From NCBI RefSeq assembly GCF_000969835.1, contig NZ_KQ033913.1:62001-126000 (forward strand): DNA of 64,000 nt. Reading direction: 5' to 3'. Within the stretch, counting starts at the first letter, position 1; each line of letters starts with the position of its first letter. This stretch comes from Parabacteroides goldsteinii DSM 19448 = WAL 12034 (GTDB lineage: Bacteria; Bacteroidota; Bacteroidia; Bacteroidales; Tannerellaceae). The notes beneath the pieces are model-generated. The model was not told the origin of the DNA and did no database searches. It saw nothing but the letters and a program-made list of their open reading frames with translations. Shown one piece after another: positions 33,245 to 36,125 of the stretch. The translations under genes were made by a program, and so were the position numbers.

Positions 33245-34552
33245 TTATTCCCACTCAATAGTCGCATTGGGTTTCGGGGACATATCGTAGCAAACGCGGT
33301 TTACGTTTTTTACTTCTTTCAGGATACGGTCTGTGATTTTCATCAGGATAGGCCAGTCTACCGGTTCGATGGTGGCTGTCATGGCGTCTACTGTGTTTAC
33401 GGCGCGGATGATAACAGGCCAGTCGAAAGAACGGGCATTATCCCGTACGCCAACTGATTTGAAATCAGGAACAACAGTGAAATACTGCCATACCTTCTTG
33501 TCTAATCCGGCAAGCTGGAACTCTTCGCGTAAGATGGCGTCAGCTTCACGAACGGCTTCCAGTCTGTCACGGGTGATAGCACCCAGACAACGTACACCCA
33601 GTCCGGGACCAGGGAACGGCTGACGGTAAACCATTTCATAAGGCAAGCCTAGTTCCAGACCGCAGGCACGAACCTCGTCTTTGAATAACTGACGCAGCGG
33701 TTCAACCAGTTCGAACTTCAGGTCTTCGGGCAGACCACCTACGTTGTGATGAGATTTTACCATCTTGGCAGTCTTTGTACCGCTTTCCACGATATCCGGA
33801 TAGATCGTACCTTGTGCTAAGAAATCGATGCCATCCAGCTGACGAGCTTCCTCTTCGAATACACGGATAAATTCGCCACCGATAATCTTGCGTTTTTCTT
33901 CCGGATCGGCAACTCCTGCCAGTTTATCCAGGAAACGGTCGGTAACATCTTTATATATCAGGTTCGCATTCAACTGATTTTTGAATACTTCCACTACATC
34001 TTCCGATTCACCTTTACGCATCAGACCATGGTTTACATGTACGCAAACCAGTTTATCGCCGATCGCTTTCAGAAGCAAGGCAGCCACAACAGAACTGTCA
34101 ACTCCGCCTGACAGGGCCAACAGGACTTTTCTATCGCCTACCTGACGTCTGACAAGTTCGATCTGGTCGTTGACAAAGTTTGTCATATTCCAGTTCGCTT
34201 CCGCTTTGCAGCTATCGAAAACGAAAGACTTCACAGCTTCTTTGATAGCTTCTATATCGTCGGTGAATTCACCCAGTTTTACTTCACATAATGCTTTGTC
34301 GTGGCCGGCAGCCATTACGGGGATACCCAGCGAGTAAATACCCGGATTTACATCTATGGCAACACCGTCGATCACATTGTTAGGACCACCGTTGATGATA
34401 ATACCTTTTACGTTCGGCAGTGCTTTCAGTTCCTCTACTGTAATGTCGTGAGGATAAATTTCACTGTAAACACCCAATGCACGGATTGCTCTTGCCAATA
34501 CCGTATTTTCATGACTTCCCAGGTCTAAAATAACGATCATATCTTGTTTCAT
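33245..34552 (-). CDS. GMP synthase paralogue with degenerate, shortened glutaminase domain
   Basis: The 435-residue protein keeps a complete GuaA synthetase part: the PP-loop LALSGGVDSSVV (residues 146-156), KSHHNVGGLPEDLKFELVEPLRQLFKDEVR and the dimerisation domain ending in NATIEWE. The N-terminal glutamine-amidotransferase domain is about 70 residues short. GICYGAQ of the neighbour is replaced by AAGHDKA, so Gly83 stands where the catalytic Cys should be, and the HGD and HPE segments are gone. It cannot hydrolyse glutamine and would need free ammonia or a partner. It follows true guaA by 52 bases without a promoter box. A strong AGGAGGAA sits just before its ATG, rare in this phylum. Confidence 0.85.
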   Translation of the reverse strand: MKQDMIVILDLGSHENTVLARAIRALGVYSEIYPHDITVEELKALPNVKGIIINGGPNNVIDGVAIDVNPGIYSLGIPVMAAGHDKALCEVKLGEFTDDIEAIKEAVKSFVFDSCKAEANWNMTNFVNDQIELVRRQVGDRKVLLALSGGVDSSVVAALLLKAIGDKLVCVHVNHGLMRKGESEDVVEVFKNQLNANLIYKDVTDRFLDKLAGVADPEEKRKIIGGEFIRVFEEEARQLDGIDFLAQGTIYPDIVESGTKTAKMVKSHHNVGGLPEDLKFELVEPLRQLFKDEVRACGLELGLPYEMVYRQPFPGPGLGVRCLGAITRDRLEAVREADAILREEFQLAGLDKKVWQYFTVVPDFKSVGVRDNARSFDWPVIIRAVNTVDAMTATIEPVDWPILMKITDRILKEVKNVNRVCYDMSPKPNATIEWE

Positions 34553-34556
34553 CGTA

Positions 34557-34564
34557 TTCCTCCT
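34557..34564 (-). promoter_or_regulatory. Strong Shine-Dalgarno sequence before the GMP synthase paralogue
   Basis: AGGAGGAA on the minus strand ends four bases before the ATG at 34552. Such full complementarity to the 16S rRNA tail is uncommon among the genes of this window and suggests a high or regulated translation rate. Confidence 0.6.
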
Positions 34565-34604
34565 AAAATTATTAAGTTAATTAGATTATCCTTCTTGTGA
34601 TTTT

Positions 34605-36125
34605 TTATTCCCACTCTATAGTTGCTGGTGGTTTGGAACTGATGTCGTACACAACGCGGTTCACACCTTTTACCTTATTGATGATCTCGTTGGATACTTT
34701 TGCCAGAAACTCGTAAGGCAGTTGTGCCCAGTCGGCTGTCATGGCATCGGTAGAAGTTACGGCACGCAAGGCAACGGTATTTTCATAGGTACGTTCGTCA
34801 CCCATAACACCGACCGACTGGATAGGAAGCAGGATGACTCCGGCTTGCCAGATCTTATCGTATAAACCCCATTCGCGCATCAGCGACATATAAATATCAT
34901 CGGCATCCTGAAGGATACGTACTTTCTCCGGCGTGATATCGCCTAAGATACGGATACCCAGACCAGGGCCGGGGAACGGATGACGTTTGATCAGATGCGG
35001 CTGCATGCCCAGTTCGATACCGACACGGCGAACCTCATCCTTGAAAAGAAGGCGAAGCGGCTCAACCAGTTGCAACTTCATCGTATCAGGCAGTCCGCCT
35101 ACATTATGATGACTCTTGATGACTGTTCCGGTGATGGATAAAGACTCGATAACGTCCGGATAGATCGTACCTTGTCCCAGCCATTTGATATCTTTCAGCT
35201 TATGAGCTTCTTCGTCGAATACGTCGATGAAACCTTTGCCGATGATCTTACGTTTTTGTTCCGGCTCGGTAACTCCCGCTAATGCTTTATAGAATTTATC
35301 TTTTGCGTTTACTCCGATCACGTTCAACCCCAGGTGTTCGTAATCTTTCATTACGTTTTCGAACTCATTCTTACGAAGCAAACCGTGGTCTACGAAGATA
35401 CAGGTCAGGTTTTTGCCGATCGCCTTGTTCAGCAATACAGCTGTAACGGAAGAGTCTACGCCGCCCGATAAGGCCAGGATCACTTTGTCGTCACCTAGTT
35501 GCTCTTTCAGTTCGGCAACCGTCGATTCGATGAAAGAAGCCGGTGTCCAGTCTTTGGCGCATCCGCAGATATTCAGGAAATTGTCTAATAACTTTGTACC
35601 GTCTGTAGAGTGGAATACTTCCGGATGGAACTGTACGCCCCAGGTCTGTTCGCCTTCTACATGATAAGCTGCCGCTTTTACATCGTCGGTACTGGCGATC
35701 ACTTTGAAGTTATCCGGCAATACGGTGATTGTATCTCCATGAGACATCCAGATCTGAGAACCGGTGTCGATGCCTTTCAATAGAGGATCTTCATTATTAA
35801 TGTAGGATAGATTGGCACGTCCGTATTCACGTGAGTTGGCCGGTTCTACATTGCCTCCGGATGTATAAGCCAGAAACTGAGCCCCGTAACAAATACCTAA
35901 AACCGGATACTTTCCACGAATCTCGCTCAGGTCTGCCTTGAAAGCATTTTCGTCGTAAACGGAGTAAGGACTTCCTGAAAGGATAACCCCTTTCACATCG
36001 GTTGCATCATGCGGAAATTTGTTGTAGGGAAGGATCTCGCAATACATGTTTAACTCTCTGACCCTGCGGCCAATCAATTGAGTTGTTTGCGAGCCGAAAT
36101 CAAGAATAATAAGTTTCTCGTGCAT
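34605..36125 (-). CDS. guaA: GMP synthase (glutamine-hydrolysing)
   Basis: This 506-residue enzyme converts XMP to GMP with ATP and glutamine in the last step of guanine nucleotide synthesis. The class I glutaminase domain has Cys79 (GICYGAQ), His167 and Glu169 (VQFHPEVF); the synthetase domain has the PP-loop ALSGGVDSS at 218-226 and PGPGLGIRILG; the C-terminal dimerisation domain ends KPPATIEWE. It is full length and precedes its glutaminase-less paralogue in the same transcription unit. Confidence 0.96.
   Translation of the reverse strand: MHEKLIILDFGSQTTQLIGRRVRELNMYCEILPYNKFPHDATDVKGVILSGSPYSVYDENAFKADLSEIRGKYPVLGICYGAQFLAYTSGGNVEPANSREYGRANLSYINNEDPLLKGIDTGSQIWMSHGDTITVLPDNFKVIASTDDVKAAAYHVEGEQTWGVQFHPEVFHSTDGTKLLDNFLNICGCAKDWTPASFIESTVAELKEQLGDDKVILALSGGVDSSVTAVLLNKAIGKNLTCIFVDHGLLRKNEFENVMKDYEHLGLNVIGVNAKDKFYKALAGVTEPEQKRKIIGKGFIDVFDEEAHKLKDIKWLGQGTIYPDVIESLSITGTVIKSHHNVGGLPDTMKLQLVEPLRLLFKDEVRRVGIELGMQPHLIKRHPFPGPGLGIRILGDITPEKVRILQDADDIYMSLMREWGLYDKIWQAGVILLPIQSVGVMGDERTYENTVALRAVTSTDAMTADWAQLPYEFLAKVSNEIINKVKGVNRVVYDISSKPPATIEWE

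Follow-up and report, generated by a model that had tools for sequence, protein, structure and literature searches.

Can a GMP synthetase do without its glutaminase? The question is raised by two adjacent genes in a 64,000-nucleotide stretch of the Parabacteroides goldsteinii DSM 19448 genome (contig NZ_KQ033913.1; hereafter the window), both of which encode guanosine monophosphate (GMP) synthetases. The upstream open reading frame (ORF; positions 34605-36125, minus strand) encodes an intact two-domain enzyme of 506 residues with C79, H167 and E169 in place, which we call full GuaA. The downstream one, 52 nucleotides away (33245-34552, minus strand), was recognized from its ORF and profile matches as a GMP synthetase of 435 residues without a working glutaminase, which we call S435. 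A third, shorter type is referred to as the 327-residue form. The nearest relatives of the window are Parabacteroides gordonii and P. faecis. From the sequence evidence set out below, we consider it probable that S435 is a GMP synthetase that depends on ammonia, corresponding in the GMP pathway to single-domain NadE, and that it has replaced the glutamine enzyme in some lineages.

Anatomy and conservation of S435

Full GuaA and S435 both exceed the cut-off of the guaA_Cterm profile (TIGR00884; 338.75 bits), with 472.8 and 453.7 bits, respectively. On guaA_Nterm (TIGR00888; cut-off, 172.15 bits), full GuaA scores above the threshold (198.7 bits) and S435 below it (52.3 bits), the match of the latter being confined to profile positions 1-75 of 188. 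The two proteins are 46% identical, with a net difference of 71 residues, and the SHGD, FHPE and Cys79 of full GuaA stand opposite gaps in S435; an ungapped run-on pairing puts Cys79 opposite Gly83. This bears out the earlier note on this DNA, made from its letters alone, that S435 lacks the catalytic Cys, the HGD and HPE segments and about 70 glutaminase residues. S435 thus falls outside the definition of a two-domain GuaA (EC 6.3.5.2), which includes a glutaminase with a Cys-His-Glu triad.

What is left of the glutaminase is a half-domain at residues 1-85 (34298-34552, minus strand, as are all parts of S435), which matches positions 1-76 of the 190 of PF00117 and takes in the strands and helices as far as the point where the nucleophile elbow used to be, the Cys itself being absent. 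In the predicted structure, this remnant is folded with good confidence and keeps the half-domain fold. The adenosine triphosphate (ATP) pyrophosphatase domain follows at residues 125-343 (33524-34180), its border being approximate, as guaA_Cterm starts at residue 125 and GMP_synt_C at residue 343. It holds the PP-loop SGGVDSS (residues 148-154; 34091-34111), of which columns 148-153 are invariant in an alignment of 42 sequences (A2), and, by its match to PfGMPS, a lid loop (residues 253-270; 33743-33796) with D253, E256, K266, H268, H269 and N270, all invariant in A2. The dimerisation domain and the C-terminal loop for xanthosine monophosphate (XMP) occupy residues 344-435 (33248-33523; PF00958, 122.5 bits).

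Residues that contact XMP and ATP or belong to the lid loop have been listed for GMP synthetases (GMPS) (PMC10526850, sections 5.1 and 5.2), and we mapped them onto S435 by motif. The counterparts of R102, R249, R294, K302, E308 and E310 of MjATPPase are retained and invariant in the 42 sequences, as are those of the catalytic PfGMPS lid residues D371, E374, K386, H388, H389 and N390. In the XMP region, S435 has R374, R419, K427, E433 and E435, as in MjATPPase, again invariant in A2. Among the residues kept is the Arg that reads O6 of XMP and by which, it is said, the enzyme tells XMP apart from other purine monophosphates. The Lys, Glu and Arg that bind the phosphate are kept too, as are the dimerisation domain and, with it, the Arg of the loop that crosses the dimer interface. 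The loop around the R249 equivalent is otherwise altered. Loss of synthetase residues on full alignment had been raised as a possibility; all those named are in fact retained, with a change in one XMP-phosphate loop.

A scan of GTDB genomes gave at least 588 confirmed relatives of S435, and the best 80 were retained (loci L001-L080; 87 to 97% identity). Their matches span residues 1-435 in 79 cases and 3-435 in one, and three carry one extra codon. The reading frame is intact in all 81 relatives examined, so the search for frameshifts in related strains came out in favour of a maintained gene. In an alignment of 82 sequences (the window, the 80 loci and one plasmid record), the commonest residue has a mean frequency of 0.936 in the remnant (residues 1-85), 0.938 in the synthetase and 0.854 in the linker (residues 86-124). 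The ratio of nonsynonymous to synonymous substitution rates (dN/dS) is 0.022 to 0.029 in five of the seven relatives compared, some of these five with dS close to saturation; for the remaining two, dS was too high for the ratio to be computed. The dN of the adjacent full GuaA is equal to or lower than that of S435 in five of five Parabacteroides pairs. A functionless, decaying guaA duplicate might well be missing half of one domain, as S435 is, but it would hardly keep its frame in 81 of 81 relatives at such dN/dS values, nor would it be placed away from the resident guaA in a tree (see below). We regard this explanation as scarcely credible; with the frame intact throughout and dN/dS at about 0.025, a pseudogene is ruled out as far as sequence can do so.

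Distribution, gene order and origin of the short forms

The 327-residue form (L149-L162) has no glutaminase at all. It aligns to residues 125-435 of S435 with 74 to 76% identity, scores 451.5 bits on guaA_Cterm and begins M..GNVRP..MERITTPALA. Its lid loop is several residues shorter than that of bacterial GuaA (e.g., ESGPVKSHHN) and near that of archaeal GuaAb, which suggests that a portion of this loop is there solely for communicating with the glutaminase. Among the best 120 relatives, the 327-residue proteins carry the source names Prevotella sp., Bacteroidales bacterium or Bacteroidetes bacterium; fragments of this type also appear under Clostridia, Oscillospiraceae, Lachnospiraceae and Spirochaetales names of metagenome-assembled genomes (MAGs), these being partial MAG proteins that are maybe mis-binned. 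NCBIfam NF000848, "glutamine-hydrolyzing GMP synthase" (cut-off, 400 bits), accepts the full GuaA of the window (774.7 bits) and likewise S435 (545.4 bits) and a 327-residue protein (P0241; 459.5 bits). Since this profile accepts proteins without a glutaminase, the public annotation of the short genes is wrong in kind.

The forms were counted in two family draws with no genome in common, whose centres (G024 and G010) were picked for having a short form. In the Phocaeicola vulgatus family (81 genomes, including G024), 58 genomes have the full type only (two as fragments), seven S435 only, one S435 and full GuaA (G024), three the 327-residue form only, 11 this form with full GuaA, and one has none. 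The G010 family (79 genomes) has 65 genomes with the full form only, eight with a short form only (G010 among them), one with both and five with none. Across the phylum (118 genomes), the short form was seen in the centre G024 only, the other 117 genomes being full-type only, one of them with the gene split over two contigs. An order-wide draw gave PF00958 in 282 of 295 genomes and not in 13; among the matches listed there, the low scorers picked were three short-only genomes (G157, G213 and G298) and one full GuaA (G095). In a set of 31 genomes chosen via the short form, ten have one S435 and no full GuaA. In all, 28 genomes are short-only, 27 of them with a single copy. Full GuaA is absent from 14 of the 15 other S435 genomes of the two family draws, and a GMP synthetase of any form from just 6 of the 160 genomes; missing contigs alone therefore cannot explain the absence of full GuaA. 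The remaining short-only genome, G026, has two S435 copies (contigs C14 and C30; 87% and 91% identical to that of the window) and no full GuaA match.

The short gene does not always lie beside guaA, as had been asked: a full guaA is found inside the fetched flank at 15 of the 80 loci, one of them cut by a contig end and some flanks being short, and this adjacency is seen in the Parabacteroides relatives of the window and in several Bacteroides. The order is gapA-mscL-guaA-short in seven loci, and gapA and mscL stand directly beside the short form, with no guaA between, in 14 others. Full GuaA was found nowhere in four of the genomes that have this second arrangement (G019, G025, G334 and G392); in a fifth (G029, locus L046) it is elsewhere in the genome. 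The full guaA sits at dcp-gapA-mscL, and the short form elsewhere, in B. xylanisolvens (where about 3 Mb separate the two genes), B. congonensis, B. bouchesdurhonensis and B. faecalis. The guaA-short pair was also met on a 57.7-kb circular record of Parabacteroides distasonis, "plasmid 19" (NZ_OY725764.1), where it adjoins a site-specific integrase and chromosomal-looking genes; this record may be an element that has been excised, or a contig wrongly circularised. Copies or pieces of guaA match 300 of 72,556 plasmid records, 82 of them from Enterococcus, and some cover only the C-terminal third.

Where did the short forms come from? We constructed a synthetase-domain tree of 141 rows (75 of 137 full, 54 of 120 S435 and 12 of 14 327-residue sequences), dropping near-identical rows and full-length rows beyond 75. 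It and the constrained tree below are quick trees in which Firmicutes have two rows (Acetoanaerobium and Enterococcus) and archaea none, and the stem is long (0.63). All 66 short-form rows, 54 of S435 and 12 of the 327-residue form, fall in one clade with a Shimodaira-Hasegawa-like approximate likelihood ratio support (SH-aLRT) of 100, which adjoins Enterococcus (97) and Acetoanaerobium (99). Separate from it stand the remaining 73 full-length rows, all Bacteroidota GuaA of the tree among them. Constraining the short forms to group with 20 Bacteroidales GuaA rows (59 rows in total) costs 47 log units, with a P value of 0.025 in the approximately unbiased (AU) test. A recent duplication of the resident guaA is thus rejected, only moderately, by this test and by the tree placement, and S435 is probably not the paralogue that the earlier note took it for. 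Because the short clade is nearer to the two sampled Firmicutes GuaA than to resident Bacteroidota guaA, the gene was probably transferred. When Parabacteroides is compared with Bacteroides-type loci (the window against L003 and L014-L063), identity is 88 to 92% for the short form and 73 to 77% for full GuaA, and the synthetase domain of S435 in the window is 96% identical to that of the Bacteroides congonensis short form; these values suggest that the short form may have spread between families.

The nitrogen donor and rival explanations

We searched 22 of the 28 short-only genomes with guaA_Nterm (18 with S435 and four with the 327-residue form: G355, G383, G370 and G213), those outside the search being G451, G422, G437, G412, G430 and G026. 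None of the 22 has a match above the cut-off, the best score being 59.4 bits, and all controls do (5 of 5 ordinary full-GuaA genomes and 14 of 14 named control genomes). By the same measure, no separate gene of the archaeal GuaAa type was found in these 22 genomes. In eight of them, PF00117 gave 26 matches: seven of CTP-synthase length, three of CarA length, six of HisH length, five of the C26-hydrolase type and five remnants. Nine were confirmed by NCBIfam profiles above cut-off (three CTP synthases, two CarA and four HisH), and two C26-type proteins match gamma-glutamyl-GABA hydrolase below cut-off; the rest were assigned by position (the five remnants) or by frame length and start sequence (ten). 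As all matches could be assigned, these short-only cells retain other glutamine-dependent enzymes and seem to be without the glutaminase of GMP synthetase. The XMP-producing enzyme, IMPDH, was detected in 19 of the 22 genomes.

On these observations (anatomy, conservation, phyletic pattern and the lack of a guaA-type glutaminase scoring above cut-off in the 22 genomes searched), we infer the activity of S435, its dimeric state, ammonia as its donor, XMP as its substrate and its division of labour with full GuaA. S435 would be a dimeric, glutaminase-less enzyme that converts XMP, ATP and free NH3 to GMP, AMP (adenosine monophosphate) and pyrophosphate (PPi). Adenyl-XMP would be made in the PP-loop domain, as in the usual GMPS chemistry, and would be attacked by cytosolic ammonia, with no glutaminase attached. 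The choice of donor, drawn by analogy, follows from the missing glutaminase and from precedent. The half-glutaminase would be an inert, structural or possibly regulatory subdomain, which was seemingly dispensable in evolution because the sister 327-residue form is without it. The gene probably arose from a Firmicutes-type guaA after loss of the glutaminase. The short form would work alongside the glutamine-dependent enzyme in Parabacteroides and cultured Bacteroides, and would have taken its place in some uncultured Bacteroidales.

One precedent is the NAD synthetase NadE, an amidotransferase-type synthetase that comes with or without a glutaminase domain, bacteria being a mosaic of both in the passages of PMC3376133 that treat it. 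GMP synthetase, too, now has glutaminase-bearing and glutaminase-less forms, although NadE has another substrate and a nitrilase-type glutaminase, and its ammonia form is held to be ancestral, whereas the remnant in S435 points to glutaminase loss. Sections of PMC3261824 describe archaeal PurF' without the catalytic Cys, a purine-pathway amidotransferase whose glutaminase is probably dead and for which ammonia use was proposed. It is a different enzyme from S435, and ammonia use is a proposal in both cases. Compared with E. coli GuaA (1GPM, EC 6.3.5.2), S435 shares the ATPPase, the lid-loop residues, the dimerisation domain, the C-terminal XMP loop and the fold, but has neither the second half of the glutaminase nor the triad; it also differs from two-domain GuaA in the loop GVMGD, which is GVRDN, in a His-to-Gln change at residue 311 and in other positions. 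Archaeal GuaAb (M. jannaschii 6JP9, P. horikoshii 2DPL) resembles the short forms as a synthetase without a covalently attached glutaminase, and it nearly equals the 327-residue form in length and has a similarly short lid loop. Unlike GuaAb, S435 keeps a half-glutaminase, has no GuaAa partner above cut-off in the 22 genomes and is bacterial, its nearest full-length rows being Firmicutes GuaA in a tree without an archaeal row.

Several rival explanations concern the partner or the substrate. S435 could form mixed dimers with full GuaA, or dock on it, to borrow ammonia or to regulate it, as the earlier note had also considered. The neighbouring genes at the 15 loci described above, the retained dimerisation domain and cross-interface Arg, and the half-domain fold of the remnant would all fit such an arrangement. 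Yet full GuaA was not found in the 28 short-only genomes, nor guaA_Nterm above cut-off in the 22 tested; the genes are some 3 Mb apart in B. xylanisolvens, and roughly every second synthetase position differs between the short and the full protein. Some genomes have the short form although a GuaA with a glutaminase was not found in them, so the mixed dimer is not a general mechanism, and we consider it unlikely, though it may occur in genomes with both forms, such as that of the window. Alternatively, S435 could be the synthetase subunit of a split enzyme fed by a separate glutaminase, like archaeal GuaAb/GuaAa. The best solved-structure match of the 327-residue form is indeed archaeal GuaAb (M. 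jannaschii 6jp9, 356.5 bits), with the lid loop similarly short. Against this, guaA_Nterm gave nothing above its cut-off in any of 22 genomes, the 26 PF00117 matches of eight genomes are all assigned elsewhere (glutaminases of other folds were not searched), and around the 327-residue gene no ORF cluster besides the gene itself recurs in more than 4 of 14 loci. We therefore set aside both a hidden GuaAa and a conserved neighbour as partner, and hold a split enzyme to be very improbable.

A different nucleotide as substrate, or another role with the fold retained, is quite improbable in our judgment. It would account for the change in the normally invariant Gly-Asp of the XMP-phosphate loop and for a second GMP synthetase that looks redundant where both forms are present. 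However, the XMP-discriminating Arg is retained, together with the Lys, Glu and Arg that bind the phosphate, and short-only genomes, 19 of 22 of which have IMPDH, showed no GMP synthetase other than the short form. This suggestion of the earlier note is disfavoured because the O6-reading Arg and the phosphate contacts persist despite the one altered loop. The ammonia-dependent synthetase, among the options that it listed, is the one that the evidence favours, with the named residues and the frame kept and the activity predicted.

Other observations weigh against an ammonia-dependent enzyme that replaces the glutamine form. Fourteen near-invariant positions are changed in one or both short forms: the XMP-phosphate loop GVMGDxRTY is mostly GV(R/K)DNxRS, and the second Pro of KPP and the Ile of the lid motif (VKSHHN) are among the changed positions. 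The apparent position of PfGMPS Lys411 is Arg in S435 of the window, as it is in full GuaA there. The divergent full-length GuaA of G095 falls below the guaA_Nterm cut-off (159.6 bits); this threshold is imperfect, yet the gap down to 59 bits is wide. Three of the 22 short-only genomes have no IMPDH match. In the 31-genome set, all ten named short-only genomes are MAGs, and all 14 named isolates have both forms. The GMPS studied so far prefer Gln and have a much higher Michaelis constant (Km) for NH4+, up to 174 mM in the human enzyme (PMC10526850), so that a lower Km would be required for ammonia to be used efficiently. PMC4380924 reports early selection, in the mouse gut, of B. thetaiotaomicron BT_4265 (guaA) carried as a clone by E. 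coli, and refers to Goodman et al. for under-representation of BT_4265 mutants. If BT_4265 is the full form, the short form would be no full replacement in B. thetaiotaomicron. It is full guaA, not the short form, that lies beside gapA-mscL in four Bacteroides relatives. BT_4265 would presumably be the full form if BT_4263 is gapA, as we take it to be.

A broader account, which in our view could just as well prove right as wrong, is that gut Bacteroidales have a free-ammonia GMP synthetase of Firmicutes-type origin, stripped stepwise from about 510 to 435 to 327 residues, which wholly displaced the glutamine enzyme in several uncultured lineages; guanine nucleotide synthesis would take its nitrogen at this step directly from luminal ammonia, and the half-glutaminase would be conserved as an accessory domain with a separate function. 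If this is true, GTP (guanosine triphosphate) supply would be tied to ambient ammonia, and cells would be insensitive to glutamine analogues at the GMP step. The short forms would also offer a natural ammonia-only enzyme for studying the two-site coupling of GMPS, and the NCBIfam naming of both would be corrected. No prior description of a glutaminase-less form was found in the open-licence PMC literature, which is weak evidence of novelty.

Expression signals and neighbouring genes

The S435 gene is preceded by the Shine-Dalgarno-like AGGAGGAA (34557-34564, minus strand), which ends 4 nucleotides 5' of the ATG, and followed by a terminator-like hairpin (33187-33228, minus strand) with a U-run, found by folding 33184-33246 (-22.4 kcal/mol; z score, -6.47). 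From these two signals, guaA and S435 are likely to be on one transcript. The strong Shine-Dalgarno sequence reported by the earlier note is present in the window but is not general: AGGAG or GGAGG occurs upstream of S435 in 4 of 90 distinct stretches (the window, L001, L002 and L004), of the full form in 1 of 116 and of the 327-residue form in 0 of 14. On these counts, the idea that it marks a foreign origin was set aside.

Just downstream of S435, on the plus strand, are two small overlapping ORFs (32268-32931), the second with a sub-threshold match to RelE (21.6 bits; cut-off, 27); they are perhaps a toxin-antitoxin pair, judging by this match. Beyond them (29997-32181, plus strand) lie an HU-HIG DNA-binding protein and then a 605-residue protein without a Pfam match, genes that are possibly part of a mobile element.

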